The notes: a model not told the origin generated them from the sequence alone. 37,202 bases of DNA from a virus (IMGVR_UViG_3300025282_000103:1-37202); one strand, 5' to 3'; positions 3,034-25,128 are shown, numbered from the stretch's first letter. Made by a program: numbers and translations.

Positions 3034-3062
3034 TTGACATAACCGTACCGCAGTGGTACAAC
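3034..3062 (+). promoter_or_regulatory. Sigma70-type promoter with embedded operator, upstream of the DUF932-like gene
   Basis: TTGACA (3034-3039), a 17 bp spacer and TACAAC (3057-3062) form a good vegetative promoter. The dyad GTACC-GCAGT-GGTAC (3045-3059) fills the spacer and enters the -10 box, so a bound repressor would block polymerase. The same core recurs at the promoters at 9234 and 25089, and in part at 16622. Confidence 0.75.
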
Positions 3063-3109
3063 AGAGGTAGTTCAACAAGACCTGGTGAACCCAGGCAGGA
3101 GAGTGACCC

Positions 3110-4066
3110 ATGACCCTACACTTCAACGACCGTCCAGTAGCCGCGCCCAGGCTTGACACACAGATACCTCGTGCTCGAGTGGCTCCGCTACCCGCGCTCA
3201 AGTCGCAGCAGATCATGACCGTTGGTTCGCCCGACGCGTATCGAACTGACTACCACACTGTGTGTGATGTACCCGTCCCGCAGGAAGAGCACAACGAAAA
3301 GGGTCATCTGACCTATCAGCCCATGCCGTTCGCCAGCTTCATCAACGGGGCCAGGGATGCAATGGCCGATGCTCTCGACGCGCCACCCATGTTCGAAACC
3401 TACGCCCTCAACGGGTCCGGCGAGCAGATGTTCGGGATGCTTGGATTCCCCAGCCCCCTTCCAGGTACTGCAATCACCGTGGCCTTGAGGTCCAGCTACG
3501 ACAAGACACTGGCCAACGAGGTCGCCATCGGCTCTGCACCGTTCATCTGTGCGAACGGATGCTTCTCCGGCGAGCACATGATCAAGGCCAAGCACACACG
3601 CAACGTGTTCGACACGCTCGCAGGGATGCTGGCCGAGATCACAGAGACAGCAGTCGGCCCAGTCATCGAGCGAATCCGCATGGTCAACGAGTGGAAAGAC
3701 ATCCCCGTACAGGATGACCTGTTCGGTGCCTACATGGGAGTCCTATTCAGTCGCGGTCTGGTCAAGGCGCAAGAGTTCACCGCGGCACACCGCTACTGGA
3801 AAGCTTGCACCCTGGCAGCAGACGAGAGGGGCGACCCAAGCAAGTGGTTGCACGCTGAGCATGGGAACCGTGACCTCTTCGGTGCCTACCAGGCAGTAAC
3901 AGGTGCAGGTCAACGGACGAGCCCGCGCAATGCCTTCCGGCACTTCGCTGGAATCGACCACGCAACACGAGCAATCGCCGACGCAGGTGGCAGCGTGCAA
4001 GACGCAGTCATCCCAGCGTTCGATCTCAAGGTCCGTGAGTACATCGACATTGGCGAAGCCAAGTGA
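3110..4066 (+). CDS. DUF932-like phage protein (318 aa)
   Basis: The middle of the protein has the pattern of the DUF932 family found in phages and plasmids: ALRSSYDKTLANEVAIGSAP followed by FICANGCFSGE and a KHT segment about 30 residues later, then a long helical C-terminal half. Family members are often early-expressed and of unknown function. The start has GGAG eight bases upstream and lies about 40 bases after the predicted transcription start. It is the first gene behind its own promoter and is the largest protein of the left early region. The family call rests on motif memory rather than a search. Confidence 0.75.
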   Translation: MTLHFNDRPVAAPRLDTQIPRARVAPLPALKSQQIMTVGSPDAYRTDYHTVCDVPVPQEEHNEKGHLTYQPMPFASFINGARDAMADALDAPPMFETYALNGSGEQMFGMLGFPSPLPGTAITVALRSSYDKTLANEVAIGSAPFICANGCFSGEHMIKAKHTRNVFDTLAGMLAEITETAVGPVIERIRMVNEWKDIPVQDDLFGAYMGVLFSRGLVKAQEFTAAHRYWKACTLAADERGDPSKWLHAEHGNRDLFGAYQAVTGAGQRTSPRNAFRHFAGIDHATRAIADAGGSVQDAVIPAFDLKVREYIDIGEAK

Positions 4067-4131
4067 GGGGCGGCTGTTGCGGGATCAGCCTAATCAAAAC
4101 CCGCATGCCTCAACCACAAAGGAAGTGAACC

Positions 4132-4584
4132 ATGATCGATCTCGTTACCTCTGAAGTCATCCGCAAGTTCAACAGCGGCAAGAACGCTGAAGAACTCAAG
4201 AGCGACACACCCCTCGGGGCTGGCACCTGGCAACACAGCGTGACAGTCACCATCGAAGGCACCCTCGTCAAGAGGGAAGCCGGTACGGCAGACGTACGCA
4301 ACAACCAAGGTTGCGCTGACATCGTCCGATATCTACTCGACCGCCTCAACCCAGACGAGTTCAATGCTCTGGCAAGAGACCTCGTCAACATCCGGCACGG
4401 TGAGTTCGACCACAAGGATGACACCCTATTCGCTCAGCGACTGGACATCATCATGCCCAAGCGCACCGTCCAACGCGCAGGAAGAACAGAGTTTCATGGC
4501 CGGTGCATCATTGAAGACATGCACGACGCACCCAGCGAAGAGTCGCAGGGAGTGAAGGGCCTCACACTTGTAATGGGAGAGTGA
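4132..4584 (+). CDS. Hypothetical protein (150 aa)
   Basis: The protein starts MIDLVTSEVIRKFNSGKNAE, after AAAGGAAG. It has a central beta-rich segment (WQHSVTVTIEGTLVKREAG) followed by helices and ends VKGLTLVMGE. In phage genomes similar small proteins often follow DUF932 genes, but I do not recognise a named family. The 65-base gap before it carries a weak hairpin, TGCGGG/CCCGCA. Confidence 0.7.
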   Translation: MIDLVTSEVIRKFNSGKNAEELKSDTPLGAGTWQHSVTVTIEGTLVKREAGTADVRNNQGCADIVRYLLDRLNPDEFNALARDLVNIRHGEFDHKDDTLFAQRLDIIMPKRTVQRAGRTEFHGRCIIEDMHDAPSEESQGVKGLTLVMGE

Positions 4585-4587
4585 ATC

Positions 4588-4827
4588 ATGAGTACCGAAA
4601 CCATCAGACGCGCAATGGTCGCGACCATCAACGCCGAACCAGGCCCACGAGAACTACTTGAACTCGAGTACGGCCAGGTGTGGGACACAGGTCAGATGAC
4701 CAAAGACTTCGATGTGCTCGGCTTCGGCGCTCCGTTCGTCGTTGTCCAACGCAAGTCCGACGGCCAAAAAGGAACGCTCATGTTCCAACACAACCCCCGT
4801 TTCTACTTTGCATTCAGGGAGGAATGA
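4588..4827 (+). CDS. Hypothetical protein (79 aa)
   Basis: A 79-residue protein starting MSTETIRRAMVATINAEPGP. The C-terminal half reads as a beta-hairpin module (VLGFGAPFVVVQRKSDGQKG then TLMFQHNPRFYFAF). GGGAG precedes the ATG, and the gene begins three bases after the upstream stop. Its last codons contain the ribosome binding site of the next gene. No family is recognised. Confidence 0.7.
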   Translation: MSTETIRRAMVATINAEPGPRELLELEYGQVWDTGQMTKDFDVLGFGAPFVVVQRKSDGQKGTLMFQHNPRFYFAFREE

Positions 4828-5126
4828 TGAAACCCGAACTCTCAATACTCATCGACGCCCTGAAGGAAATCGCACGGTTCTCCGACAACGAGAATCAGTT
4901 GGGTCAAATCATGGAGTTCCGCTGGCAAGCGGTCTCCGGCGCACGCGCAGCCCTGAACCAAACCGGCCACGACTGGGTTGACACCTCACGCTGCCCCCAG
5001 TGCAACGAACCAGGCACACCGCAGACCCGACGAAACAGCGTGTTCATAATGGTCTGCGAAGAAACCTTCGACTGCAACTACGAGGATCAGTGGGAACACA
5101 TCGACCCCGAAGGAGAAGAAGAATGA
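4827..5126 (+). CDS. Small protein with CxxC ribbon (99 aa)
   Basis: Two adjacent ATG codons (4824 and 4827) are possible; the second has the better spacing to GGAGG and is used here. The N-terminal 45 residues are helical (MKPELSILIDALKEIARF). The C-terminal half carries CPQC and two later cysteines (VCEETFDC), arranged like a zinc ribbon, and ends in an acidic tail. Its stop overlaps the next start as ATGA. No family is recognised. Confidence 0.7.
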   Translation: MKPELSILIDALKEIARFSDNENQLGQIMEFRWQAVSGARAALNQTGHDWVDTSRCPQCNEPGTPQTRRNSVFIMVCEETFDCNYEDQWEHIDPEGEEE

Positions 5127-5794
5127 ACCCCACCATGCTTTGGGTTGGTGCCTCCAACAACCGCAAGACAGGTAACATCCCGCAAGGCTACGTCGGCATA
5201 GATAAAGCCGAGGTCGAGCGGTCCTGTGAAGGCTGCCCGATGCGGTACGATGGCTGCTACCACTGGCTCGGAAGCCGACGCGCACAAGCAGCCATGCAGA
5301 AAGTCGCCGCCGTGGACGCTGAACGGTACTCGCTGAGTAATGCCATCAGTAAGTCAGTAAGAGCAGCGCGATACATCCGTGCGGCTGTCGGTGGTGACCC
5401 GTGGATCTTCAGCCGTGAAACCGTTGAGGGGTGGCGCAGTAAAGCCATCGCCAAGGGGTTCAAGGGCATCATCATGTACACCCACTTCGCGAATGAGAAG
5501 GCCCGTCATCTCAAGGGATTGGCGCTGGCCTCTGTTCATTCTCTCGAAGAAGCAGACGACCGCATCCGGGAGGGGTGGCGTGTTGCAATGGTCGCACCTG
5601 TCAAGGTACCCGGCTCGAAGCGCTCGACGCTGAACCCCATAGCTGAATGGCAAGGTGAAAAGTTCATCACGCCCGACGGTGTAGAGGGGCGCGTCTGTCC
5701 GGCCCAAGTCAAGCGAGGTGTCAACTGCAACACCTGCGGACTATGTGACCCCGCCCGAGATGCAGATTCACTCATCGTTTTTCTCCAGCACTAA
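5123..5794 (+). CDS. Cysteine-rich conserved phage protein (223 aa)
   Basis: The N-terminus reads MNPTMLWVGASNNRKTGNIP and is followed by CEGCP and GCYHWLG, a pattern I associate with an uncharacterised phage family in which 'K-T-G-x-I-P ... C-x-x-C-P ... C-Y' recurs. Near the C-terminus a second cluster, CNTCGLC, completes a likely metal site. The central region is helical and basic. AAGGAG lies before the start, which overlaps the previous stop. The cysteine spacing could hold zinc or an iron-sulfur cluster. Function is not known. Confidence 0.75.
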   Translation: MNPTMLWVGASNNRKTGNIPQGYVGIDKAEVERSCEGCPMRYDGCYHWLGSRRAQAAMQKVAAVDAERYSLSNAISKSVRAARYIRAAVGGDPWIFSRETVEGWRSKAIAKGFKGIIMYTHFANEKARHLKGLALASVHSLEEADDRIREGWRVAMVAPVKVPGSKRSTLNPIAEWQGEKFITPDGVEGRVCPAQVKRGVNCNTCGLCDPARDADSLIVFLQH

Positions 5795-5802
5795 GGAACA
5801 AC

Positions 5803-6177
5803 ATGTCAAAGAGACGAAACTGGAAGGGCACAAAGAAGCGCCCACGAACCGAGGCACAACACAAGGCGCAACGAGAATGGGAAGCTTTGTCGCCCGAAGA
5901 AAAACGTGCAGCGCAACGAGAACAGTTCCTTGAATGGCTGGAAATGTTTCAAGGAGAAGAACCGATTCTACATCTGAACGGGAAACCCCAACCCCACAAC
6001 CCAATGAGCCAAGAGGAAGCGGACCTGCACTTGGCATTGTTCGACAAGGAAATCGAACCGACAAGAGACATACAAGTTCAGCTTGCCCAACTGGAACTCC
6101 TTCGACAACCCGACTCCGGGAAACACCACTTCAAACTTTGGAAGCTGATGTTCCCTGAGTTCTTCGCACGAGGATGA
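5803..6177 (+). CDS. Highly charged helical hypothetical protein (124 aa)
   Basis: A 124-residue, charged, mostly helical protein. The first 20 residues are very basic (MSKRRNWKGTKKRPR) and are followed by an amphipathic helix rich in E, K, R and Q. AAGGAA lies just upstream of the ATG. The basic N-terminus could bind nucleic acid. No family is recognised. Confidence 0.7.
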   Translation: MSKRRNWKGTKKRPRTEAQHKAQREWEALSPEEKRAAQREQFLEWLEMFQGEEPILHLNGKPQPHNPMSQEEADLHLALFDKEIEPTRDIQVQLAQLELLRQPDSGKHHFKLWKLMFPEFFARG

Positions 6178-6179
6178 GC

Positions 6180-6437
6180 ATGGTATATACATTCCACACC
6201 GACCCCGGCCACGGCTGGCTCGAGGTACCCACCAGCCAACTGGTTGACCTCGGCATCGAACACAACATCTCCACGTATTCTTACGTACAAAACGAAACCG
6301 CGTACCTCGAAGAGGATTGCGACGCTGGAGTATTCGTTGATGCGTACAAAAAGAAACATGGTTCGCAGCCTGAGTACGCAGAAAAGTACTCCGAACATAC
6401 TTTCATTCGAAACCTCTCACCCTTTAGGAGCACATGA
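6180..6437 (+). CDS. Conserved small phage protein, 'HTDPGHGWLEV' type (85 aa)
   Basis: The motif HTDPGHGWLEVPTSQLVDLG followed by IEHNISTYSY and YLEEDCDAGVF is very characteristic of a small uncharacterised protein found in many phages. The ATG at 6180 is preferred over the one at 6174 because GAGG is six bases upstream of it; the earlier ATG abuts the ribosome binding site. The conserved H, D and GHGW residues look like a binding or catalytic surface, but no activity is known to me. Confidence 0.75.
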   Translation: MVYTFHTDPGHGWLEVPTSQLVDLGIEHNISTYSYVQNETAYLEEDCDAGVFVDAYKKKHGSQPEYAEKYSEHTFIRNLSPFRST

Positions 6438-6628
6438 TGCACCCCAGTCACCAACTCCACTTGGAGCCGGTTCACACCATTCAACTTTCAACTGGGCTCG
6501 CTCATATGGTCGGGCACATCATCAAAGATGCGACCGACCGACGAACTCCGCGAGGACTTACGCGGGAACAGACCGAGATACTCGAGCAGTTGACTGCCGT
6601 ACTATTGGCGATGGAAGAGGAGGAATAA
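6437..6628 (+). CDS. Small helical hypothetical protein (63-64 aa)
   Basis: Tandem ATGs occur at 6434 and 6437; AGGAG lies three and six bases upstream respectively, so the second is slightly favoured. The protein has a histidine-rich N-terminus (MHPSHQLHLEPVH) and a C-terminal helix ending in four glutamates (LLAMEEEE), whose codons supply the GAGGAGGA ribosome binding site of the next gene. No family is recognised. Confidence 0.65.
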   Translation: MHPSHQLHLEPVHTIQLSTGLAHMVGHIIKDATDRRTPRGLTREQTEILEQLTAVLLAMEEEE

Positions 6629-6630
6629 AC

Positions 6631-6834
6631 ATGCTCCACCTAATCCTCGACAACATCGAAGCGTACGTGAACGCACGCATCGACCTCTACTCATTCCTCC
6701 AGGAGAACAAGACAGTAGGCGACGACTACGACTGGACGGAACGCAACGACCTGAATCAAGTCGTTCAACGCAGGCTCGATGGACTGATGTCAATCGTCAA
6801 GATGCACATCAACGAACAAACCAAAGGAAGGTGA
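6631..6834 (+). CDS. Small helical hypothetical protein (67 aa)
   Basis: The ATG is two bases after the upstream stop and follows GAGGAGGA. The protein (MLHLILDNIEAYVNARIDLY to NEQTKGR) is predicted to be wholly helical with an acidic middle. A much longer reading frame in the same phase overlaps two other genes and is not used. No family is recognised. Confidence 0.65.
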   Translation: MLHLILDNIEAYVNARIDLYSFLQENKTVGDDYDWTERNDLNQVVQRRLDGLMSIVKMHINEQTKGR

Positions 6835-6837
6835 GTG

Positions 6838-7104
6838 ATGGGTGAGCGGACATACGGGCACACGATGCTCGTCACACGGACTATCGAAATCAACGTCCAC
6901 TTGGGCGTCACGCCTTCCGAGAATGGAGTCGAAATCGTAGGTACATTTGATGCCGAAACCTCCGAGCCAATCCAACTCACCCACGAGGAAACCCAAATAA
7001 TCTACGACACGGCACTCACCGACTTCCAAGAGACAATCGAATCCCTTGCCCAGGAACAAACTTTCGACCGCTGGAAACATGAACGTAAATATGGAGGTGA
7101 ATGA
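6838..7104 (+). CDS. Hypothetical protein (88 aa)
   Basis: An 88-residue acidic protein starting MGERTYGHTMLVTRTIEINV, with a beta-rich N-terminal half and a C-terminal helix ending KYGGE. The ATG is preferred to a GTG three bases earlier, with GGAAGG upstream. Its last codons GGA GGT GAA TGA form the ribosome binding site and start region of the next gene, the same junction that recurs in the 9298-11697 operon. No family is recognised. Confidence 0.7.
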   Translation: MGERTYGHTMLVTRTIEINVHLGVTPSENGVEIVGTFDAETSEPIQLTHEETQIIYDTALTDFQETIESLAQEQTFDRWKHERKYGGE

Positions 7105-7433
7105 TGGAACAACCAGTTGAAGTAACCCATTGCAACGACGACCAAGGCAATCTCATGTACGCCGTCTACGTCTGCGAGGTCACCGGTGCTGCCGATGTCG
7201 GCATCTACGGTGAGCCGGGAGACGGTATAATGTTCCGCTCCCCTGAGTTTGCTGACGTTGACGAGGCTATGGACTGGGCGCACGAGCAGGCATCGTCCCT
7301 TCGCGCCCAGTTGCAAGGGAAAACTTCCCGTGGCCCACACGGCAAACTCGCAACCGCCGACCTTGCTGCCCGCAGTAAAGCCCGGAGATTGGAACTGCTG
7401 TATGAGGAGTACGAGGAGGGGCTCGACGAGTGA
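7104..7433 (+). CDS. Hypothetical protein, last gene of the left early operon (109 aa)
   Basis: The start uses the second ATG of GGAGGTGAATGATG, six bases after GGAGG. The N-terminal half is beta-rich (EVTHCNDDQGNLMYAVYVCE) and the C-terminal half is helical with a basic stretch (ARSKARRLELL) and an acidic end. A terminator-like hairpin follows 17 bases after the stop, consistent with the end of the operon. No family is recognised. Confidence 0.7.
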   Translation: MEQPVEVTHCNDDQGNLMYAVYVCEVTGAADVGIYGEPGDGIMFRSPEFADVDEAMDWAHEQASSLRAQLQGKTSRGPHGKLATADLAARSKARRLELLYEEYEEGLDE

Positions 7434-7449
7434 GCCACCAGACAAATCG

Positions 7450-7490: not shown

Positions 7491-7708
7491 CTTCTGAGAC
7501 CAACCCGGAGAGGGCAGTGGCGGGGCGCGAGGCCCCCAGCTTTGAAGGAGGCAGTACCGGAGGACAGCGGTCCTGGCGGTAGGCCATCGGCGCCGGGGAG
7601 AGGACAGCGGTACCGGCGATATGCCGGGGTTGACTCCACCGCACCTGCACGGTTACGCTACCCGTGACCATCTGGTCAGTCCGAAAGCACATCTGGGGCT
7701 ATGCCCTT
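7491..7708. repeat. GC-rich structured block with a 40 bp direct repeat
   Basis: No gene is supported. AGGACAGCGGT occurs at 7561 and again at 7601, each followed by GGCG-TA-GCC-like sequence, giving an imperfect tandem repeat of about 40 bp. The first copy sits inside a dyad (TACCG 7555-7559, AGGAC 7561-7565, GTCCT 7570-7574, CGGTA 7577-7581). The second is followed by CCGGC-GATAT-GCCGG (7613-7627). The block lies downstream of the terminase-small-like operon and could be a packaging or regulatory element. Confidence 0.5.
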
Positions 7709-8607: not shown

Positions 8608-9233
8608 GTACGCATCCTACCCGATCCAGCCCCGAACCACCAGCCGTAACGACCCCCCTCGATTTTGCAACTACATTGTAACGACCCCCGTCGTTGCAGC
8701 ATATCCAAGGGACAAAGCCCACAATATACAAGTGTAACTACATATCTACATATCATTTATATAGGGCACTCTCGTGAGGGTACCTCATAACTTACATTCC
8801 AACAGCCAAAGTAAACGGAGCAGCCCCACATATATGTGTACCCTCAACCATGTAGATAGGTCGTTGCACCAGCCATTACCCAGGTTCAACCTGACCTTTC
8901 GCGTAACGACTCCTACATGTAGGTCGTTGCAGCATATGCCAGGTTCAAACTGGTGTATCGAGTAAAGCCCAAAATCACCCAACTGCACAGACTTTCTAAA
9001 CCCTATACACATTCTCGGTGTAGGTCCTATCTCTGAGAGCGGAGCAGACTTTGCAATGCTCGAGAGCCCCTGGCGGGGCGAGGCGCAGGCGTGCTGGCGA
9101 GACAAGAGCGCAGGCTGACAAGCAGCGAGCGTGGGGAGAGACGCGGGCGCAGAGGCGGGGCGAATGGCAACGAGGAGAGCACAAGCATTGTCACCGTTCA
9201 AACTGGTGTATGCAGTTTATTGACCCAACGCCC
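8608..9233. other. Long intergenic region with iteron-like repeats and AT-rich tract (candidate origin/control region)
   Basis: No convincing gene. GTAACGAC occurs at 8646, 8678 and 8903, and its near-complement GTCGTTGC at 8690, 8860 and 8923; two pairs form dyads, one with a CCCC spacer and one with a 12-base spacer containing TACATGTA. Longer direct repeats also occur: GTCGTTGCAGCATAT (8690 and 8923) and TTCAAACTGGTGTAT (8944-8958 and 9197-9211, exact). Between the repeat groups, 8723-8765 is strikingly AT-rich. From about 9036 to 9185 the plus strand becomes purine- and G-rich with repeated GCGCAGG. Such a layout fits a replication origin or divergent control region. Confidence 0.5.
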
Positions 9234-9262
9234 TTGCACAACTCATACCGCTGCGGTATGCT
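9234..9262 (+). promoter_or_regulatory. Promoter with embedded operator for the ten-gene cysteine-rich operon
   Basis: TTGCAC (9234-9239), 17 bp and TATGCT (9257-9262). A perfect 17 bp dyad, CATACCG-CTG-CGGTATG (9244-9260), fills the spacer and the front of the -10 box. Its core TACCGCTGCGGTA matches TACCGCAGTGGTA of the 3034 promoter at 11 of 13 positions. Transcription would start near 9269, about 29 bases before the first gene. Confidence 0.75.
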
Positions 9263-9297
9263 TGTAGTGAGGGCAACCTCAAAGGAGAGTGAACCTG

Positions 9298-9558
9298 ATG
9301 AATGACAACGACAACAACAACATCTACATCGTGGCCCGTGAGTGGTTGCTGCCCGACAACGGCACCCAAGTCAACGTGCTTGGCGTCTACACCGACCGAG
9401 GTGTGGCCGAGGACGAAGCATCGAAGGCTGCTCGACTCGGTGGCCAGGACATGGACCGAGGGTACATCATACTCACCAGGTACGAACTGAACCCCAAACA
9501 CATCCGCACGGTGAACGACGCAGGCCACCGCCTGGACCTGATGTTGGGAGGTGAATGA
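9298..9558 (+). CDS. Hypothetical protein, first gene of the right early operon (86 aa)
   Basis: It begins MNDNDNNNIYIVAREWLLPD, an asparagine/aspartate-rich start followed by beta strands, and contains a GVYTDRGVAEDEASKAARLG segment. AAAGGAG is about ten bases upstream. The C-terminus LMLGGE is encoded by the GGAGGTGAATGA that also serves as the ribosome binding site of the next gene. No family is recognised. Confidence 0.7.
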   Translation: MNDNDNNNIYIVAREWLLPDNGTQVNVLGVYTDRGVAEDEASKAARLGGQDMDRGYIILTRYELNPKHIRTVNDAGHRLDLMLGGE

Positions 9559-9854
9559 TGTTTCAAGTAGGCGACCGCGTAATCATCAACCACGACAAAC
9601 CTGACGAGTGCCGAGGCACAATCACCCACCGAACCTGGGAGAACGCAAGCTACGTGCGCTTGGATTGGCCTCGCAAGTTGCGACCTTCGCACCGCCATTA
9701 TCCTGTAAACAGTGACGGACAAGAGGTCATCACCCGACACGAGAACCTGACCCGTGAGGTATGCAGCGAGCACGGCGAACCGTTCGACGACAACCCAGGC
9801 AAGGACATCTGCAAGACCTGCGAGGATTGGATCGTGACTGAAGGAGGTGAATGA
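9558..9854 (+). CDS. Small protein with SH3-like N-terminus and zinc ribbon (98 aa)
   Basis: The start MFQVGDRVIINHDKPDECRG resembles a KOW or SH3-like barrel (G-D-R-V-x-I), a fold often seen in proteins that contact RNA, ribosomes or polymerase. The C-terminal third has C-x-x-H-like CSEHGE and later CKTC, a possible zinc ribbon. It uses the second ATG of the GGAGGTGAATGATG junction and itself ends EGGE through the next junction. The function is unknown. Confidence 0.7.
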   Translation: MFQVGDRVIINHDKPDECRGTITHRTWENASYVRLDWPRKLRPSHRHYPVNSDGQEVITRHENLTREVCSEHGEPFDDNPGKDICKTCEDWIVTEGGE

Positions 9855-9994
9855 TGAAGATCAAGATCATCGAAAGTGACGAGTGCGACCAGTGCAACCG
9901 AGAGGTGTGCGAAGCGTATGAGTGCCAAGGTTGCGGTGACATTTACCGCGACTGTGACGGCGAGTGCTTGAACGATTGTGGGGAGGTGTCCTAA
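9854..9994 (+). CDS. Tiny cysteine-rich protein (46 aa)
   Basis: This 46-residue acidic protein (MKIKIIESDECDQCNREVCE to CLNDCGEVS) has eight cysteines, arranged as CDQC, C, CQGC, C and CLNDC. That density suggests one or two zinc sites. The start follows the standard GGAGGTGAATGATG junction, and the stop overlaps the next start as TAATG. It is shorter than most gene finders report, but the junctions on both sides support it. No family is recognised. Confidence 0.75.
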   Translation: MKIKIIESDECDQCNREVCEAYECQGCGDIYRDCDGECLNDCGEVS

Positions 9995-10227
9995 TGAACA
10001 ACCTGATGACCAACGACCAGTGCCAGGAGCAAGCCCAATCCATCCTCGACAACAACGACCACGAGTCCATGCAAACGGTTGCCAAGCGCATCGTTGAGAC
10101 ATGGAGCAAGGAAGAACTGGCGGCCTACGCTGTCGCCGCTCGGATGGATGAGTACCGTGACGGTGACCTGTCAGCGATTGAAAACACATTGATGAGTGAC
10201 CTATGGGAACTCGAAGGAGGTGCATGA
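9994..10227 (+). CDS. Small helical acidic protein (77 aa)
   Basis: A 77-residue helical protein (MNNLMTNDQCQEQAQSILDN) ending ELEGGA. GGGGAGG lies upstream inside the previous gene, and the ATG overlaps that gene's TAA. The conserved-looking WSKEELAAYAVAARM segment is amphipathic. Its last codons provide the GGAGGTGCATGATG junction. No family is recognised. Confidence 0.7.
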   Translation: MNNLMTNDQCQEQAQSILDNNDHESMQTVAKRIVETWSKEELAAYAVAARMDEYRDGDLSAIENTLMSDLWELEGGA

Positions 10228-10526
10228 TGAGTTTGATCCCTGATGGAACACTCGTCGAGGTGTTGACCACACTACGGCTAAAGCCCGTATACGAGCACCA
10301 GGTCTGGGGTTCTTGCAACCCGCACACACTGTGGCCCGGAACCTACCTTGTGAAACATGCCGCAGCCCACCCACGCACAGACCTGGGAACATACCGTTTC
10401 TATGCGACCGAGGGCTCCAAGCCCGTCCCTGACTGGCCTCTTCATCGCTGCATTGTCCATCACTATGCAGCGCCGATTGACTCCCGACTGAAAGATAACC
10501 AAATCACACTCGACGGAGGTGCATGA
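10227..10526 (+). CDS. Hypothetical protein (99 aa)
   Basis: A beta-rich protein starting MSLIPDGTLVEVLTTLRLKP and containing several aromatic and histidine residues (PLHRCIVHHYAAP). The first part could be another small barrel. It starts at the second ATG of the GGAGGTGCATGATG junction and ends DGGA through the next one. No family is recognised. Confidence 0.7.
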   Translation: MSLIPDGTLVEVLTTLRLKPVYEHQVWGSCNPHTLWPGTYLVKHAAAHPRTDLGTYRFYATEGSKPVPDWPLHRCIVHHYAAPIDSRLKDNQITLDGGA

Positions 10527-10696
10527 TGACACTCAAAGCAACACGCAGAAAGAAGGGGCCTTCAGTCTCCTGTGACAACGCCGACACGTGCGGGGCAACC
10601 AGCATCTACGGTTTTGATGTTGTCGACACCAAGACAAATACCCGCCGGATTCTCTGTGCGGACTGTGCATCCGAAGCAACCGAAGGAGGTGCATGA
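10526..10696 (+). CDS. Tiny zinc-ribbon protein (56 aa)
   Basis: The 56-residue product begins MTLKATRRKKGPSVSCDNA, with a basic N-terminus and four cysteines (C-x5-C early, CADC late), which fits a zinc ribbon. It lies exactly between two GGAGGTGCATGATG junctions and ends TEGGA. It is short, but the spacing and junctions are convincing. No family is recognised. Confidence 0.7.
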   Translation: MTLKATRRKKGPSVSCDNADTCGATSIYGFDVVDTKTNTRRILCADCASEATEGGA

Positions 10697-11100
10697 TGTA
10701 CCGATGCCCAGAATGTAAAGGAACCGACGTCCACGTGGCCGTGTGGATCGACGCCAACACGAAGGAGCCAGTGCGCGACGATGCCCCGGTAGACCCGTGG
10801 TGCAACGACTGTGAGGCTCACGTTGGGCGACTGGAGATCGTGGAAGAGAAACCCGCCATCAACGTGGGCACTGAGGATGACCCGCTCTGGTGGTCCGAGG
10901 GACTGTGCGAGGACTGCATGGGTGAGGACGGAACCAATCGCTGCTCATGTGGATGCCTTGCCTGTGCTGACTGCATGACTGAGCACGCCAATGAGGCAAG
11001 GAACGAGGGAAGCTGTCAACTCGGCATACGCCCCGAGATCCTGGCCAGCCCGGAAGCCATGAAGCGACGAGAAGCACACGCCAAGGGAGGTGACCAGTGA
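10696..11100 (+). CDS. Protein with multiple CxxC motifs (134 aa)
   Basis: The protein has CPEC at residues 4-7, then CNDC, CEDC, a CSCGC cluster and CADC, about twelve cysteines in all, enough for three zinc sites. The first pair (MYRCPECKGTDVHVAVW) looks like a rubredoxin-type zinc ribbon; the later ones could form a RING- or B-box-like arrangement. It starts at the second ATG of the junction and ends KGGDQ. A role in binding a protein or nucleic acid is likely, but none is shown. Confidence 0.75.
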   Translation: MYRCPECKGTDVHVAVWIDANTKEPVRDDAPVDPWCNDCEAHVGRLEIVEEKPAINVGTEDDPLWWSEGLCEDCMGEDGTNRCSCGCLACADCMTEHANEARNEGSCQLGIRPEILASPEAMKRREAHAKGGDQ

Positions 11101-11258
11101 ACCAGCCCTACCAATGCCCAGACGAACAGGAAGCACAGGCCCAGGCCAAGTGTCGAGACACGGCGCTGCGTAATGGCTTCACCACAGAGCAAGCCGACAC
11201 CTGTGATGACGGGGCCGTGGGTTGCCACGACTGCCCATGGGCCAAGGGAGGTGAGTGA
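11097..11258 (+). CDS. Tiny cysteine-containing protein with GTG start (53 aa)
   Basis: A GTG start overlaps the upstream stop (GTGA) and lies six bases after GGAGG. The protein, starting MNQPYQCPDEQEAQAQAKCR, has six cysteines including CHDC near the end, and finishes KGGE through the next junction. The GTG departs from the ATG pattern of its neighbours but the spacing is the same. No family is recognised. Confidence 0.65.
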   Translation: MNQPYQCPDEQEAQAQAKCRDTALRNGFTTEQADTCDDGAVGCHDCPWAKGGE

Positions 11259-11458
11259 TGGGCCGACGTAGACCACCACTTACGAGCAGGGTCGTGCGAG
11301 GGCTGTTGGATGTCATCATCCACGCCGAGGTTCAATGCGGTGATCAGGAGGATGACGTAATGTACGACAAGGCCGAAACAGCCGATATGCGGCGGGCCAT
11401 CGAGTATCTGAGTGACCTTAGACGATGGCACAGCCAGAAGCGCAAGGGAGGTGAGTGA
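11258..11458 (+). CDS. Small helical protein (66 aa)
   Basis: A 66-residue protein, basic at both ends (MGRRRPPLTSRVVRGLLDVI; HSQKRKGGE) with an acidic middle. It starts at the ATG of GGAGGTGAGTGATG and its own last codons repeat that junction for the next gene. Amphipathic helices dominate. No family is recognised. Confidence 0.65.
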   Translation: MGRRRPPLTSRVVRGLLDVIIHAEVQCGDQEDDVMYDKAETADMRRAIEYLSDLRRWHSQKRKGGE

Positions 11459-11697
11459 TGATTTGCATGACTGACTCACCCCTCGACCCGAGAACCATCG
11501 CAGAGGCAGAGAAGTGGGCCAGCTACACCATCGCTCGCCAGCACTTCAATCGGTACATCAGGCTACTTTACTTGACCTGTCGCGTGTGCGGTAAAGAACA
11601 AGGGCCCGTCTGGACAGACTACAAGTCCGTCAAGAAGCTGGGTGTCGACGGGAAGTGCTGGACATGCAGGAGGCTAACTCCCAAGAGCAAAGTCTGA
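11458..11697 (+). CDS. Small zinc-ribbon protein, last gene of the right early operon (79 aa)
   Basis: Helical N-terminus (MICMTDSPLDPRTIAEAEKW) and a C-terminal CRVC/CWTC pair about 29 residues apart, consistent with a zinc ribbon; the C-terminus is basic (RRLTPKSKV). Its last 24 bases overlap the 3' end of the converging DUF927-type gene. No terminator is obvious between the two. Confidence 0.7.
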   Translation: MICMTDSPLDPRTIAEAEKWASYTIARQHFNRYIRLLYLTCRVCGKEQGPVWTDYKSVKKLGVDGKCWTCRRLTPKSKV

Positions 11698-14585: not shown

Positions 14586-16583
14586 CTACGCTTTGGGCGC
14601 AGGGGGCATCGGCAGTACGTTGCCGCCACGAACAATGTCGTAGGTTCCGTTCTCATTGACGCACACAACATCAGGCGACAGTCCATCACGGATGATGGCT
14701 GCAACGGTATCTCGAGACATCATATCGACATGACACGGGTCGAAGCCCATCTCCTCCAGCATCAGCGTACTGCGTGAGGTGACGCGCAACCCACCAGACG
14801 CATGGTTCTTGCTGGTCTGGGTAGGTTCTTCTTTCTCCTCGACCTCATCGACTTCGTACTCTTCGTCAGGCTCGCACCAGTCGGCACTCACTGTATCCAT
14901 ATCAAGGATGGTCCAACCCTTGGGCGGGCGTCCTGTGGGTCGAATAGTGCTCGCCATGATGACCTGACCTTCGAACTTGGAGAAGCCTTTCATGACAGCA
15001 GACAAAGTCTTGCCGTCCCATGCGCGGTCCTCCGGGATGAGTACTGCGGGCTCGTTGTCGGGTAGACTCTCGGACACAGCCATTGAGATAGCGCACACAA
15101 CCGAGGCCCACTCAGCACCAGAGAGAGCCGAGTGGAGCCTCCCGTCACGCATGACTCCCATACGGAACACCTCTCGGTCTCCGTCCAGTAGTTCGATGTT
15201 GAAATCCCAATGCTTCGGTAGGTACTTCTGTACCCGCTGGCTGAAGTCCTTGGCCTGTTCTGCGAGTAGTCGACCTACCGCAGTCTCACCACACTTCTTC
15301 AAGTCCTTGTACGTGTTGGCCTCTGCGTGCATGCTGAACATGCGGTCGCGTGCGTTGGCAAGATTCTCCCACTGTGACTGGATAGTTTCAGCCGCCGTCA
15401 ATGCCGCCGTTGCTGCTTCGAGGCGAGACTGAGCATCGGCGACGGAGATAGTCGTGGCGTCTCCATCGATGACAGGTACCTGTTTCAACCGCTCCACCTC
15501 GTTTCGGAACTGAGCCACATGCCGCTCAGCGGATTCGAGGTTTGACTTCCACTTGTCGAGAGCCATCAATGTCTGACTTGACTGTGCCTGCCATTGGTTC
15601 TCCTGCTCCTGGTAGAACGCTTGGCAGTTTTTCAAGTGGTCCAGACCTACTTGACTACTACATACAGGGCATGCGTCCAAGCTGTGTTTGACAGCGACAT
15701 CGACAATCTGGATGGCATGGCCGACGTTCTCCCCTTTCTGCGGAAGAGACGTCTCGGTTTCTTGAAGAGACCGTTCAGCCTGGAGCCGGTGGTTCTCCCA
15801 TTGGTTGTATCCATTCGCAGCCTCGGCGATGGCATCGCTACGAGCCTCAGCGGTCATACCTGCACCGGCAGCGTTGACAGCGACATCAAGTACCTTTCTG
15901 GCCTCGACCACGGCGATACGTATTCGAGCAAGGTCATCCTCAGAGGGTCGGTCCTCGACCGTGTCACCCATACTTTCCAGGATGATTTGGGCACCCTTGG
16001 CTTCCTTGGATGCTTCTCGCTGACGCTTACTTGAGTAAGCCACAATCTCCAGTAGGGTCTCGACGGGCGTGTTGCCGTGACTCTTGTGGTCAGCGATGTC
16101 TCGGTACTTGGCGTGTAGTTCTGCTGGTAGGTGAGCCAGCACATCTTCAAGTTGGATGTCGCCTCCGGCCCAGGAGAGAAAGGCTTTGCGGGCGTTCGCT
16201 GTCGAGCCTGCCAAGGCTTCACTCACCATACGATGTACCAGCGCAGACTTACCTGGCCCTTTGTGTTGTGGTCGCTTGACCTTGCCCGCCTCACGCTGGA
16301 CGTTGAACAGCGCGTGTTCTTCGTCAGACAGAACCGCGGATACCCCGAGTTCATCTGCGGGAGCCAGGGTCATGAGCAGCGCAGCGTCGGATACGGCACG
16401 TCGACCGAAGATGTCATCGGCTGACCCGGCAAGAGCCAACTCGACAGATTGAATGACGCTGCTCTTGTGGCTGGTATTCGTCCCGACCAGCAACGTGTGC
16501 TGTCCGAGTTCGACACTCCAGGCATCGCCACATGGACGCGGAGACTTGAGATTACTGTAAATGCTTTTGACAAAGGGTCGCAT
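14586..16583 (-). CDS. SMC/Rad50/SbcC-like ATPase with atypical P-loop (665 aa)
   Basis: The N-terminus has LLVGTNTSHKSSVIQSVELA (residues 31-50), in the position of a Rad50/SbcC Walker A but with His in place of the usual final Gly (G-x-x-x-x-H-K-S). Two helical arms flank a CPVC at 305-308, a zinc-hook-like motif. The ABC signature appears as SALSGAEW (485-492), followed by a Walker B AVLIPEDR (513-520) and IMASTI. After about residue 570 comes an acidic linker and a C-terminal region of unknown function. Such proteins act with nucleases in DNA-end processing, though no SbcD-like partner is adjacent. GGAGG precedes the ATG. Confidence 0.8.
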   Translation of the reverse strand: MRPFVKSIYSNLKSPRPCGDAWSVELGQHTLLVGTNTSHKSSVIQSVELALAGSADDIFGRRAVSDAALLMTLAPADELGVSAVLSDEEHALFNVQREAGKVKRPQHKGPGKSALVHRMVSEALAGSTANARKAFLSWAGGDIQLEDVLAHLPAELHAKYRDIADHKSHGNTPVETLLEIVAYSSKRQREASKEAKGAQIILESMGDTVEDRPSEDDLARIRIAVVEARKVLDVAVNAAGAGMTAEARSDAIAEAANGYNQWENHRLQAERSLQETETSLPQKGENVGHAIQIVDVAVKHSLDACPVCSSQVGLDHLKNCQAFYQEQENQWQAQSSQTLMALDKWKSNLESAERHVAQFRNEVERLKQVPVIDGDATTISVADAQSRLEAATAALTAAETIQSQWENLANARDRMFSMHAEANTYKDLKKCGETAVGRLLAEQAKDFSQRVQKYLPKHWDFNIELLDGDREVFRMGVMRDGRLHSALSGAEWASVVCAISMAVSESLPDNEPAVLIPEDRAWDGKTLSAVMKGFSKFEGQVIMASTIRPTGRPPKGWTILDMDTVSADWCEPDEEYEVDEVEEKEEPTQTSKNHASGGLRVTSRSTLMLEEMGFDPCHVDMMSRDTVAAIIRDGLSPDVVCVNENGTYDIVRGGNVLPMPPAPKA

Positions 16584-16621: not shown

Positions 16622-16650
16622 AGCCTATCGAATCCGTACCGCAGCGTCAA
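16622..16650 (-). promoter_or_regulatory. Promoter of the SMC-like/NrdR-like operon with partial operator
   Basis: On the minus strand TTGACG (16645-16650), 17 bp and TAGGCT (16622-16627). The -35 box overlaps the end of the upstream gene. The plus-strand sequence at 16637-16649, TACCGCAGCGTCA, agrees with TACCGCAGTGGTA at 10 of 13 positions, one half-site being intact, in the same place between the -35 and -10 boxes as the other operator-like sites. Confidence 0.6.
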
Positions 16651-19870: not shown

Positions 19871-19902
19871 CACTTTCCTGTGTGTCCGAGACTGGAGCGA
19901 GG

Positions 19903-19975
19903 AAGCAGGGGGGGGATTTGAACCCCCGACCTCCGGGTTATGAGCCCAGCGAGCTACCAACTGCTCTACCCTGAC
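19903..19975 (-). tRNA. Initiator-type tRNA-Met (CAT anticodon)
   Basis: On the minus strand the cloverleaf reads D-stem GAGC/GCTC, anticodon stem CTGGG/CCCGG around CTCATAA, variable loop AGGTC and T-stem GGGGG/CCCCC around TTCAAAT. Initiator features are present: three consecutive G:C pairs next to the anticodon loop, A11:U24 in the D-stem, and a weak top of the acceptor stem (1:72 G-T and a 2:71 mismatch in GTCAGGG/CCCTGCT). CCA is not encoded. It lies 32 bases upstream of the polymerase start on the same strand. Confidence 0.85.
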
Positions 19976-20753: not shown

Positions 20754-21729
20754 AGACTGGTGGTGGCGGCGGGAGAGCAGGCGAGTTGCCTGTTGTCTCT
20801 TCAGCCTCCGAGAAGTCAAAGAGTGATTGGCTGGACTGTTGCGCCAACACGCCGCGGGCAATGCCGTCTTGGCATGCCCAACGAAGATGCAATGGATTGT
20901 CAGTCCGACCTGACACCGCCGCGTGGATCGCATCCTGCACGGTGGTACCTGAAATCATAGCCTGCGCGACAATCTCTGCAACCTCATCTTGCCACTCGAG
21001 ACCTTGAAGGCGGCTCAACTTGTAGTTGCTCTCGCTGGCTCTCATGATCTCTCTCAGGTTGCCGGGAGTCTTCTCCGAGCACACACCTGTCCGGTCTCCC
21101 GTGACCCATTCAGGGTCGGTCGGGTCGCAGTAGTAGATGCTTGGAAACCACGGGTCGGGGTAGTTGGGGTCGACCATGGCACGCACGTTGATGTCGCACC
21201 ATGCCGGTAGTGTCTCGACCTGGTTGCGCGAGGGCACATCGGGGCCGCCTGGACAGAACCGACCGTCTGCGTTGGTACCTGGCATGCGCTCGTGGAATGT
21301 CATCAGGAGATGGACACCCAGATGGCGAGACAAATGGGCAATCTGGAGTAGGTGCTGGTTCAACTGCTGGTACTGATAGAAGCGGTCTTTCTTTCCGCTC
21401 CTACCTGTGGGCGCTTCTTCGGCCCACTCCAGCATTGACCGCTGACAGAGATGGCTCGTGTCGTCGATGACAACCGCACCGTACTGCAAAGCACTTCCTG
21501 TCTTGGCCATGGCACTCAGCAACGCGACCAGGTCAGGCAAGTTCTTTGGTGAGTCAGGGTGCACCGAGGGGGTGAACCCAAGTTCGTTCTGCGCGACCAA
21601 GGTGACCGCCGAGGGTACACCAAGGAACAGGGCAGTAGGGAACGTCGCCAGCGCATCGCTGGTCTTTTTTTGCTTCGGCTTGCCGAACACCGTCGCCATG
21701 ACGGTAGGCAGCCCATTATTTTCGGTCAT
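20749..21729 (-). CDS. Sak4-like recombinase ATPase with atypical P-loop (326 aa)
   Basis: The N-terminus has TVMATVFGKPKQKKTSDALA (residues 9-28) followed by TFP, the layout of Sak4-type phage ATPases (G-x-P-x-x-G-K-T ... T-F-P), but with K-K-T where G-K-T is expected. A Walker B, AVVIDDTSHL, follows at 85-94. The central region (HLGVHLLMTFHERMPGTNAD) and later WQDEVAEIV are consistent with a RecA-like core and helical C-terminal arm; the extreme C-terminus is proline-rich. Two adjacent ATGs are possible; GGAG is six bases from the one chosen. Sak4 proteins load single-strand annealing and sit beside SSB genes, as here. Confidence 0.65.
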   Translation of the reverse strand: MTENNGLPTVMATVFGKPKQKKTSDALATFPTALFLGVPSAVTLVAQNELGFTPSVHPDSPKNLPDLVALLSAMAKTGSALQYGAVVIDDTSHLCQRSMLEWAEEAPTGRSGKKDRFYQYQQLNQHLLQIAHLSRHLGVHLLMTFHERMPGTNADGRFCPGGPDVPSRNQVETLPAWCDINVRAMVDPNYPDPWFPSIYYCDPTDPEWVTGDRTGVCSEKTPGNLREIMRASESNYKLSRLQGLEWQDEVAEIVAQAMISGTTVQDAIHAAVSGRTDNPLHLRWACQDGIARGVLAQQSSQSLFDFSEAEETTGNSPALPPPPPVS

Positions 21730-21794
21730 CATATTCTCCAGGATTGAAGTTGGCTTTGGGGTTTTAGAGTCTAACGTAGGTTGATGGCTGCGAC

Positions 21795-21811
21795 CGGTCA
21801 GTTTGTGACCG
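21795..21811 (-). terminator. Hairpin at the stop codon of the nuclease gene
   Basis: CGGTCA-CAAAC-TGACCG (minus strand) is a perfect 6 bp stem with the nuclease TGA stop in its second arm. As at 20734-20753, no T-tract follows. Short hairpins at gene ends in this operon may protect transcript ends. Confidence 0.35.
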
Positions 21812-22784
21812 CCTCTCCGTAAAAGCACATCTTGATTGCCGCGCATGCGCCGTAGCGGCCCACACAGGTAGTCTCGTGTTGCACCTTGGGCCAGTCCCAG
21901 TAGTTGGGCAGTTCAAGGTCCAGTCGAGCAAGGGTATGCTCGGCCCGCCAGAGCATATCGGCGAAGTGACGGTCTCGATGCGGAGTCGCAGGAACCATGG
22001 GCCGCGCCACGCGCCAAGGCTCTTGGGTCTGGATGAGATTCAACGCCACACCACCGAAGTGCTTCCCATACAACTGCTTGCCCATGATTCTGAAGGCGGC
22101 GAAGCCCCCATCGATGGCGTAGCCGTCCACTGAGCGGTTGGGCTCGACCTTGGCCTGGTGTTTGTGGTCCCAGACGAAGATTCGACCCGCTCGGTCCTTC
22201 GTGACCATGTCCAGACGGCGCGTGAGCACGATAGCTGAACCCGAGTCGGGATGACCGGGGCAGTTGAGTGGGGTCAACGTGATGATGTCGTCATCCCACG
22301 CTCTGACCGAGGCAACTTGGCGATTGAAGTGTTGTTCCTCTGGATGTACAACCCATAGACCCCAAACACCGCTCTTCTCTCCCAGCACAGCGGTGATAGG
22401 GTATTCGACTGCAACCACGCTACCAGGAGCCTCAGGGTGCTTGGCCATGTACCGACGAAACGTCTCAGTCATCCGATCAAGGTGCTTATGCCCACCATTG
22501 GCGTCGCACCACTGATGTACGGCTTCTTCCGGTGGCAGAAAGACGCTCGGGTCGTTGTGCCATGCCTCATCAACCCAAACACCTTCTGCGGTACGCGCCC
22601 CCCAGATGGCATGCTGATGTGCTTGGAGCACATGGCCCATGCTGCCGCGGGTGAGGGCATCGGCGGGGATTAGCTGCTTGTCGAGCCGGTTCTGGTACGC
22701 GAAAAGCTGCGGACACCGGAAGAACGAACCAATCCGTGACCAACCACGCGATGAGCGACCTGCATCAATGAGAAGCTGACTCAT
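21798..22784 (-). CDS. PD-(D/E)XK nuclease, Cas4/AddB-like with probable Fe-S cluster (328 aa)
   Basis: The N-terminus SRIGSFFRCPQLFAY supplies a first cysteine (C24). A GSMGHVLQAHQHAI segment matches the G-x-x-x-H motif, and RRLDMVTKDRAG then FVWDHKHQAKVEP give the D and D-x-K catalytic motif near residues 192-208, followed by a Q/Y-like helix (SVDGYAIDGGFAAF). Near the end, C307, C314 and C320 complete a Cas4/AddB-type iron-sulfur arrangement. Such exonucleases resect DNA ends for recombination. The gene overlaps its upstream neighbour by ATGA and follows the helicase, so helicase and nuclease may work together. The start is well defined by the overlap. Confidence 0.75.
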   Translation of the reverse strand: MSQLLIDAGRSSRGWSRIGSFFRCPQLFAYQNRLDKQLIPADALTRGSMGHVLQAHQHAIWGARTAEGVWVDEAWHNDPSVFLPPEEAVHQWCDANGGHKHLDRMTETFRRYMAKHPEAPGSVVAVEYPITAVLGEKSGVWGLWVVHPEEQHFNRQVASVRAWDDDIITLTPLNCPGHPDSGSAIVLTRRLDMVTKDRAGRIFVWDHKHQAKVEPNRSVDGYAIDGGFAAFRIMGKQLYGKHFGGVALNLIQTQEPWRVARPMVPATPHRDRHFADMLWRAEHTLARLDLELPNYWDWPKVQHETTCVGRYGACAAIKMCFYGEAVTN

Positions 22785-23125
22785 ACCTCACCTCCCAACT
22801 TCGTCACCATGGTCTGCAACTTCTCCTTGTAGCGCTCTTCGAAGTCTGCCTCCATCATCTGCAAGTGCAGCGCTTGTAAGCGCTCCTCTTGTTCACGCGC
22901 CTCTTTGATTTGTTGTTTCTTTTGTTGGCGGCTCTCAGACACTTTCTTGTTCTGCGCCCACTTCTTTTTTCCCATGAGTTTCTTACGGCACGCAGCACAA
23001 AGATGCTTTCCTTGGTAACCCCGGAAGCCCTCTGCCTGACCACTGGCCATAAGCGCGGAGAATGACTTGTGTCGGAGCAGTTTTGACTTGGCGCAGGTGT
23101 CGCACTCATACCGAACCTCGATCAT
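22781..23125 (-). CDS. Zinc-ribbon and coiled-coil protein (114 aa)
   Basis: The N-terminal 50 residues carry CDTC and CAAC in a typical zinc-ribbon spacing (MIEVRYECDTCAKSK; GKHLCAACRKK). The rest is a highly charged helix with long runs of K, E, Q and R (KKQQIKEAREQEERLQAL). The gene overlaps both neighbours by ATGA, linking the helicase and nuclease. It may be an adaptor between them; no family is recognised. Confidence 0.7.
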   Translation of the reverse strand: MIEVRYECDTCAKSKLLRHKSFSALMASGQAEGFRGYQGKHLCAACRKKLMGKKKWAQNKKVSESRQQKKQQIKEAREQEERLQALHLQMMEADFEERYKEKLQTMVTKLGGEV

Positions 23126-25044
23126 GCTACCTCCAGCTTGCTGATGATGCTGTTCACGAGGGATTCACTGTCTTCCATGCCCAGAAGCTTCTCTCCGAGG
23201 CCATCCAACTCGTCTGCCTTGAGGAACGACTCGATTGGGCCGAACTTATCCACAAGAATCTCAACAACGCGTTCGTCGTACGTCCCGCTGGCCACGACAA
23301 CCTTCAATAGGGTGGCACTACCGCCCAATCGGTCGAATCTGCCCTTCCACTGGACGAAATCACCGGGCTTCCAGGGGAGCATGGCGAAAATGGCGAGGTC
23401 CGCGGTCTGCATACCGTCAACACCAGTGCCAACGCTTTGTCCTGTCGCGATTAGACAGCAGGGACCTGTCGATTCCCTGAAAGCGTCGACCATTGTGTCC
23501 CTTTCGGATTCAGGGACACCACCATGCGCCATCCAAACCGGGACCTCACCTAAAGCTTCATCACCACGACTCAATGCCCGAAGAAGATCGTGCTCCCACA
23601 ACTCTGTTTCCCTTCTACGGGCGGTGAAGATGACAACTTTTCCCCCTCCCTTGAGTCCTTCAATCGCTTCACTCACTACATACCGTCGTTTGCGGCTACA
23701 TGCCTCTGCAAGTCGGGCCTCGACCACTCGCTCTCGTGCCAGCGGGTCGGTTCGGGTCTCCCGGATGAGTCCACGGAGCGCCTGACCGAAGGTCTTGTCG
23801 TCATCCCACCGCTCTGCACGGTTCAACTCAGACGCACTCAGGTACACGACCTGTACTCGGGTGTCTGGGAGGGCTGCATGTGACTCACTGTACGGAACCT
23901 CGTGCACCAGGAAGCTGCATCGTGCTTTCAACTCGTCCAGGTGGCTGGCCCCTGTGTCATCGAGGCCACCGTACTGCCCCGGGCGGGCGGCACAATACCG
24001 ATGGGCGAAGTTGGAGTAGCTGTGGCTGAACCCTCCGGGCGCCAGCAGGTCCAGTTGCGACCACAAACGCCGCGGCCTGCCGTCATCGAGGGGGGTTGCT
24101 GTGAGCCCTACCCGCAGCCGCACGCTCGAGAGCCGACTGAGGTCCATGACCGCCACGGCGCGGTTCTCCCTATTGATGCGGGAGTCAGCCCGATTGCTTG
24201 CAGCCGTACGCCGACGCTCGAAGGTCACGCTGCCGTCGGCCTCTTGAATAGCCTTCCACCGCTTGCGGCTTCCGTGTGTATGGATTTCATCGAGAATAAG
24301 GACGGTAGGTTGGATGCGTCGTGCGATGTCGAGGTTGTCGGCTAAAGCTTCCGCCCCCATGACAATCACAGGGCGACGGTATTCGCTTCGACATTCTCGA
24401 AGGTAGTCGTCCAGGCTTTGGTCGCGCTTTCGTTGGCCCGATGAGGGTCGAACGCGGAAGGGTTTGAGGTTGGTGTATTCCTGTATCTGGCTCCACCAGA
24501 CATGACGGGCCTTGGCTGGACATACGACCAGGATGGGGCCTGTTTGGCTGAGGGCTGCCATGATGGCCCCAAGTGTCTTGCCTGCACCACAGGACCAGAC
24601 GTTCATTGTCCATGGGCGCGTGCGTGCCCACTCGATGCCCATGAACTGATAGGGGGTTGCAAGGTCGACAACGTGTTCTCTGAGTTCCCCTGCTGCCGTC
24701 AAGTTCTCAGCGAGGTTTCTTCCTCTGCACTCGAGCCTTTCTCTTTCGGCGGGATCGTTCGACCATCCAGTGATACCCTCGATGCCCGTGGCCGAGAAGG
24801 TATATGGCAGTGAGTAATAGGCGAGCATGCCCTCGACGAGCCAAGCGGCGTGCAGCGGTGCGTAAATCTCGCATGATGTCATCCCCTCGATTTGCTCCGA
24901 CAACGCATTTTTGAGGCGCATGCGTCGACTCGAGTGGTTCCTACCATACACCATGGCTCCAGGAACTTGGCCTTCAAGACCCTGAAGCAGTTCGAACTGC
25001 GTACAAGGATCAACTCGATAGGTGATATGAGGTTGATTGTGCAT
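23122..25044 (-). CDS. SNF2-type superfamily-2 DNA helicase/translocase (640 aa)
   Basis: After an N-terminal 140-residue region come motif I SCGAGKTLGAIM (about 155), motif Ia-like LVVCPAKARHVWW, motif II LILDEIHTHG (about 250), motif III VGLTATPLDDG (about 314) and, in the second RecA domain, VIFTARRRE and motif VI QWKGRFDRLGG (about 566). The spacing fits a SNF2/UvsW-like enzyme acting on branched or damaged DNA. It is first in a three-gene operon with a zinc-ribbon protein and a nuclease. A TTGACA promoter places the transcription start at or next to the ATG, and no ribosome binding site is seen, so the transcript may be leaderless. Confidence 0.85.
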   Translation of the reverse strand: MHNQPHITYRVDPCTQFELLQGLEGQVPGAMVYGRNHSSRRMRLKNALSEQIEGMTSCEIYAPLHAAWLVEGMLAYYSLPYTFSATGIEGITGWSNDPAERERLECRGRNLAENLTAAGELREHVVDLATPYQFMGIEWARTRPWTMNVWSCGAGKTLGAIMAALSQTGPILVVCPAKARHVWWSQIQEYTNLKPFRVRPSSGQRKRDQSLDDYLRECRSEYRRPVIVMGAEALADNLDIARRIQPTVLILDEIHTHGSRKRWKAIQEADGSVTFERRRTAASNRADSRINRENRAVAVMDLSRLSSVRLRVGLTATPLDDGRPRRLWSQLDLLAPGGFSHSYSNFAHRYCAARPGQYGGLDDTGASHLDELKARCSFLVHEVPYSESHAALPDTRVQVVYLSASELNRAERWDDDKTFGQALRGLIRETRTDPLARERVVEARLAEACSRKRRYVVSEAIEGLKGGGKVVIFTARRRETELWEHDLLRALSRGDEALGEVPVWMAHGGVPESERDTMVDAFRESTGPCCLIATGQSVGTGVDGMQTADLAIFAMLPWKPGDFVQWKGRFDRLGGSATLLKVVVASGTYDERVVEILVDKFGPIESFLKADELDGLGEKLLGMEDSESLVNSIISKLEVA

Positions 25045-25050
25045 GAGCCG

Positions 25051-25079
25051 ACTCTATGTCAGCCGTGACAGGGTGTCAA
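25051..25079 (-). promoter_or_regulatory. Promoter of the helicase operon, probably leaderless
   Basis: On the minus strand TTGACA (25074-25079), 17 bp and TAGAGT (25051-25056). Only six bases (CGGCTC) separate the -10 box from the ATG at 25044, so the predicted transcription start falls on the start codon. The -35 lies back-to-back with that of the repressor promoter. Confidence 0.75.
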
Positions 25080-25088
25080 GGAATAAAG

Positions 25089-25128
25089 TTGACGCACCCC
25101 GTTCATCGCGCTACCGTTGTGGTGTAGC
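25089..25128 (+). promoter_or_regulatory. Repressor-gene promoter with operator-like dyad
   Basis: TTGACG (25089-25094), 17 bp and TACCGT (25112-25117). The dyad GCTAC-N9-GTAGC (25110-25128) covers the -10 box, and its core TACCGTTGTGGTG matches the cores at the 3034 and 9234 promoters. This is consistent with autoregulation. The -10 is weak, as expected for a repressor's own promoter. Confidence 0.6.

Follow-up and report, generated by a model that had tools for sequence, protein, structure and literature searches.

This locus raises the question whether a palindrome that recurs at several promoters of one viral contig, TACCRYNRYGGTA, marks a regulon, and which protein would bind it. The window, i.e., the whole analysed stretch of 37,202 nucleotides, is one IMG/VR contig of an uncultivated phage lineage without a near DNA match among isolated phages; the best match of its DNA polymerase to isolated phages reaches only 23% identity. 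We found no description of this regulon in the open-licence literature.

Operator-like sites and their promoters

All five sequences that the initial annotation had named as operator-like copies are present where it placed them (Table 1). Across the 37 kb window, the exact 13-mer pattern has three occurrences, with copies of TACCRYNRYGGTA at 3046-3058, 9246-9258, and 25112-25124. The core ACCRYWRYGGT is likewise found three times against 0.3 expected, a number reached in none of 300 simulations, and the enrichment over shuffled DNA holds when up to three mismatches are allowed (97 matches versus 65 +/- 8, with 0 of 100 shuffles reaching 97). A further match at 10153-10165 lies inside a gene and was taken as chance.

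Table 1. Genes and candidate sites of the putative regulon in the window.
Feature	Coordinates	Strand	Evidence and context
Left-edge gene, truncated at the contig boundary after 106 bases	1..106	-	homologues in 12 relatives, most with site upstream
Site TACCACAGTGGCA	162..174	-	8 bp upstream of promoter TTGCCA(153-148)-N17-TACACC(130-125)
Weaker copy TGACATAACCGTA	3035-3047		beside 3046 site; 1 mismatch
Site TACCGCAGTGGTA	3046..3058	+	in spacer of TTGACA(3034-3039)-N17-TACAAC(3057-3062); same position in G017
Weaker copy TACAACAGAGGTA	3057-3069		beside 3046 site; 2-3 mismatches
DUF932-related protein, first gene of early-type operon 3110-7433	3110..4066	+	PF06067 4.9e-5
Site TACCGCTGCGGTA	9246..9258	+	in spacer of TTGCAC(9234-9239)-N17-TATGCT(9257-9262); related sites in G003, G004
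Operon of short early-type genes behind 9246 site	9289..11697	+	ORF list; ATGA overlaps
SMC/SbcC-like protein gene	14586..16583	-	phrog_77 1.9e-8
Half-site fused with -35 box, TTGACGCTGCGGTA, of SMC-like promoter	16637..16650	-	site upstream of SMC in 16/17 contigs
DNA helicase gene, first of minus-strand replication block	23122..25044	-	phrog_62 1.5e-46; divergent from HTH gene
Second palindrome TGACAGGGTGTCA, over helicase -35 (25074-25079, minus)	25066..25078		conserved in window clade
Candidate autoregulatory site TACCGTTGTGGTG	25112..25124	+	conserved 5' of HTH gene in relatives
Cro/C1-type (XRE) HTH protein, 99 aa, proposed regulator	25140..25439	+	Pfam HTH_31 1.5e-10, HTH_3 2.2e-10, both over cut-offs

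The positions of promoter elements were read directly on the sequence. The copies had been described as sharing one place relative to the -35 and -10 boxes, whereas the sequence and its relatives show four positions. The 3046 and 9246 palindromes occupy the downstream part of the 17-bp spacer, and their terminal TA is where the -10 box starts. The 25112 site lies further downstream, its first six bases TACCGT being the -10 box of TTGACG(25089-25094)-N17-TACCGT. At the SMC-like promoter TTGACG-N17-TAGGCT (-10 box TAGGCT at 16622-16627), the left half of the palindrome is merged into the -35 box, and the site at the left edge is upstream of the -35 box. The 17-bp spacing reported for 3046, 9246, 25112, and the SMC-like promoter is seen here too, and the 162 copy, set apart earlier, has an N17 promoter as well.

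The sites at both early-type operons have counterparts in related contigs. The 3046 site corresponds in G017 to TTGACG-N6-TTCCGCTGCGG-TAGGCT, and sites at the DUF932-related gene or operon were also identified in G020, G021, and G023; in G003 and G004, sites related to that at 9246 lie in the interval separating the p11455 homologue from the gene of the terminase small subunit. Several local features accompany these operons. The three site-like 13-mers of 3035-3069 (TGACATAACCGTA, TACCGCAGTGGTA, and TACAACAGAGGTA) follow each other in 11-bp steps, which could permit side-by-side binding on one face. The gap after the first operon holds a 26-nt repeat, GAGGACAGCGGT..., in two copies 40 bp apart (7560-7625). 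The stretch 8610-9245, just upstream of the 9246 promoter, is non-coding and rich in the short direct repeats GTAACGACCCC, TAGGTCGTTGCA, and GTTCAAACTGGTGTA; it is possibly a replication origin or a further regulatory region. Gene junctions within 9289-11697 carry a recurring GGAGGTGAATGATG or a close variant together with ATGA stop-start overlaps, suggesting translational coupling.

Conservation of the site in related contigs

Queries with HTH, helicase, DUF932, and SMC retrieved numerous related contigs, the longest of 74 kb, and the comparison set comprised 20 of them (1.0 Mb in total, simple gene call). In upstream intergenic DNA, ACCRYWRYGGT has 21 matches in 14 contigs and outnumbers every other palindrome in a set of 2560 of identical form; the runners-up, mostly degenerate versions of it, have at most 10 matches, and decoys of the same composition average 0.5. 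TACCRYNRYGGTA itself is upstream in 10 of 11 cases, upstream DNA as defined making up 18% of the total. When orthologous promoters were compared (up to 120 bp upstream, one mismatch allowed, half-sites TACC or TGAC), a site was present upstream of the HTH gene in 18 of 19 contigs, the helicase gene in 16 of 18, the SMC gene in 16 of 17, and the left-edge gene in 12 of 13, with 0.3-0.4 expected for each from the genome-wide rate; these counts are drawn from related contigs, which are not independent draws, with a generalised half-site derived from the same data, and those for HTH and helicase are not independent because both genes share one intergenic region. Among the negative-control genes, primase has a site in 0 of 16 contigs and the terminase small subunit (terS) in 2 of 14, both matches lying between terS and the divergent early operon; polA is a weak control owing to its uncertain start. 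The tRNA-Met call at 19901-19975 (minus strand) overlaps the initial codons of the DNA polymerase ORF (TTG at 19960), the true start of which is probably further in, since many relatives align only from residue 9-37. Relatives with as little as about 40-65% protein identity still have the site at orthologous promoters. A chance origin of the sites is ruled out by the decoy ranking, the negative controls, and this conservation. The copy noted at the HTH gene's own promoter is thereby confirmed, and those at 162-174 and 16637, initially labelled partial or doubtful, prove to be orthologous sites among the best conserved.

Each promoter has its own pattern of conservation. Upstream of the HTH gene, TACC is invariant and both halves are strongly conserved, while the preceding 17-bp spacer is mostly variable (22 aligned rows, of which L056, L061, and L154 are anchored on the neighbouring helicase-side site, slightly blurring the right half). 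The helicase -35 region that carries the second palindrome reads TTGACGYAGYGGTA, or close to it, in other clades. The helicase mRNA (25042-25079, minus strand) looks leaderless or nearly so, the -10 box TAGAGT (25051-25056) ending 6 nt before the ATG. Across 36 distinct SMC promoters, GGTA at spacer positions 5-8 after TTGAC carries 0.9-1.3 bits per base, compared with less than 0.6 bits at most other spacer positions; the 16637 copy has this same form and is thus a genuine conserved site. The 162-174 arrangement is common to seven relatives (G001, G002, G004, G006, G014, G015, and G016), and the order in relatives is palindrome, a short conserved stretch (mostly ATTACCRCC), and a TTGCCA-type promoter; in four contigs the left-edge promoter has the perfect TACCGCTGTGGTA. 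Directly upstream of the left-edge palindrome, G001, G002, G020, G021, G025, and G026 share another conserved element that reads TTTTCAAAACACC or nearly so; G026 keeps it although its palindrome differs.

Other candidate motifs were examined and set aside. TGACRYNRYGTCA was rejected as a separate lineage-wide motif because it is rare in upstream DNA overall, and is retained only as a variant at the helicase promoter and, in G026, at the SMC and left-edge promoters. The perfect intragenic matches TACCACGGTGTCA (one of them TACCATGGTGTCA) occupy the same coding place of the p16650 gene in five relatives, apparently reflecting conservation of the encoded protein rather than a site. In G024, a single near-match was found in the entire contig and none of these promoters carries one, and a palindrome search within G026 and G024 alone gave no clear winner.

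Candidate regulators of the palindrome

The HTH protein belongs to the Cro/C1-type (XRE) family according to its HTH_3/HTH_31 domain and its AlphaFold (AF2) model (pLDDT 89.4), which displays a four-helix Cro/C1 HTH followed by one long C-terminal helix and nothing further beyond the HTH domain. Its best fold matches are HigA antitoxins (Z 10-11, 12-18% identity), followed by the DNA complexes of P22 c2, 434, and SinR (Z near 8); such likeness alone leaves the function of the modelled protein unproven. Several observations tie the protein to the site: it is the sole HTH_3 protein in each of the 12 contigs tested, a site is present at its promoter in almost every contig, and a shift in gene position (G025) and a change in the recognition helix (G026) are accompanied by changes in the sites. 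The HTH gene of G025 has been relocated and now follows primase; the new promoter has the site TGACGCTATGGTG, and none is present at the helicase promoter. In G026, the recognition helix has SCSEIS in place of SQSEVS, ACCRYNRYGGT is absent from all 70 kb, and the left-edge gene has TGACAACATGTCA where others carry the TACC palindrome. The tie is imperfect, since L063, from a divergent HTH clade, keeps a nearly identical helix (SQPEVSRLESG) without the palindrome at the HTH -10 box.

The main rival binder is the left-edge protein, the N-terminus of which resembles a ribbon-helix-helix by eye only and which has no Pfam match over cut-off. Its gene is likewise conserved in the lineage and has the site at its own promoter in nearly all contigs, including the four perfect palindromes; however, G022 and G023, contigs that may be incomplete, have the HTH site and other sites with no detectable left-edge homologue, and the G025 site tracks the relocated HTH gene. 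In addition, the left-edge protein is without a confirmed DNA-binding family, and its site upstream of the -35 box would be unusual for autorepression. We therefore consider it quite unlikely that this protein, rather than the HTH protein, binds the palindrome. Less likely still is binding by a regulator of the host, either co-opted by the phage or controlling it, with the HTH protein acting on another target. A search of genomes from bacteria and archaea (about 85,000) for a helicase relative that might point to the host gave none. Against a host regulator, the site lies in an autoregulatory position and differs in G026 together with the recognition helix, which links it to the phage gene. 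Finally, the right halves GTGGTA and GCGGTA at 3046 and 9246 abut the -10 box and resemble an extended -10 element, as if the sites formed part of promoter recognition, either as an extended -10 (TGG-TA) or through a spacer sequence favoured by the host's sigma factor, instead of acting as operators; this is highly improbable given that the palindrome takes four positions relative to the -35 and -10 boxes, including upstream of the -35, and that its left half is as strongly conserved as the right.

Predicted repression circuit and known phage systems

We propose that the 99-aa HTH protein is a repressor that regulates its own gene and acts as a dimer on early and replication promoters, probably as a Cro-like shut-off. 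Promoter conservation, the decoy ranking, and the sole HTH_3 protein in 12 of 12 contigs support the single HTH-tied regulon of early and replication genes that had been postulated initially; its repressive nature is what we infer from site positions over the -35 box, spacer, and -10 box, and repression through the HTH protein appears likely on these grounds, whereas lytic timing in particular is the less certain part. The protein would bind as a dimer to an inverted repeat of 11-13 bp with half-sites TACC-RY or TGAC-RY, the latter being the half-site written into a TTGAC -35 box. The exchanges at the helicase and G026 left-edge promoters suggest that the two halves are alternatives, TGAC being forced where the half-site doubles as the -35. 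By covering the -10 box it would repress its own gene, by covering the -35 box the SMC-like and divergent helicase promoters, and by covering the spacer and -10 box the two early-type operons. The left-edge site, whose centre falls some 50 bp before the transcription start, may mediate either repression or activation; a site at about -50 fits poorly with simple blocking of RNA polymerase.

Neither tyrosine or serine integrases (PF00589, PF00239) nor resolvase, ParA, or ParB genes were detected in 12 contigs of 37-74 kb, none known to be complete. A Cro-like timer or shut-off in lytic growth is thus most likely, rather than lysogenic immunity. The HTH protein might instead be the lysogeny repressor of an extrachromosomal temperate phage, with an immunity regulon like that of cluster A mycobacteriophages. 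Immunity repressor systems have a site overlapping the -35 box, to which the sites described here can be likened, and the dispersal of sites at early promoters is in keeping with such a role; the lack of detected integrase and ParA/ParB genes in these contigs and the single helix beyond the HTH domain make it unlikely. The pattern suggests that one small protein controls early genes in viruses with no detected integrase. More tentatively, and with less than even confidence, we propose that in this lineage, with no integrase detected, one small Cro-like protein forms a whole-genome early-gene switch, in which TACC and TGAC half-sites evolve, an operator half doubles as the -35, and specificity shifts with the recognition helix. 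An uncultivated phage lineage thereby gains a defined, testable circuit of regulator, site, and target promoters kept over wide divergence, and the contigs offer a natural series of regulator/operator pairs for the study of specificity change and of an operator merging into the -35 box.

By analogy, the circuit would work like a repressor circuit of the Cro/CI type. It shares with the lambdoid Cro and CI proteins (434 Cro and CI, P22 c2) the small Cro/C1-type HTH fold, palindromic sites over promoter elements, and predicted autoregulation; however, its sites are dispersed over at least five promoters rather than arranged in OL/OR triplets, a half-site is written into the -35 box, and no integrase was found. 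Where a lambdoid switch has two opposing repressors sharing OR and OL, each of the 12 contigs encodes one HTH_3 protein. L5-type sites include one with the -35 complement TGTCAAG, a likeness to the sites described here. As in the cluster A phages L5 and TipsytheTRex (PMC9283540, PMC3029335), one phage regulator would serve many dispersed 13-bp sites. The TipsytheTRex/L5-type stoperator repressor binds an asymmetric site as a monomer with two domains (PMC9283540), whereas the protein studied here has 99 aa with one HTH. L5-type sites are asymmetric 13-bp sequences, many within transcribed DNA, and the candidate sites found here are palindromic and concentrated at promoters; the circuit would thus differ from an L5-type stoperator system. 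HigA-type antitoxins share the HTH and C-terminal helix as best fold matches, but a HigA gene has the HigB toxin gene in the same operon. The sites here are found at several operons, and the HTH gene is isolated, flanked on both sides by minus-strand genes and with no toxin gene adjoining; the next gene shows matches to one endolysin family and one family of unknown function.
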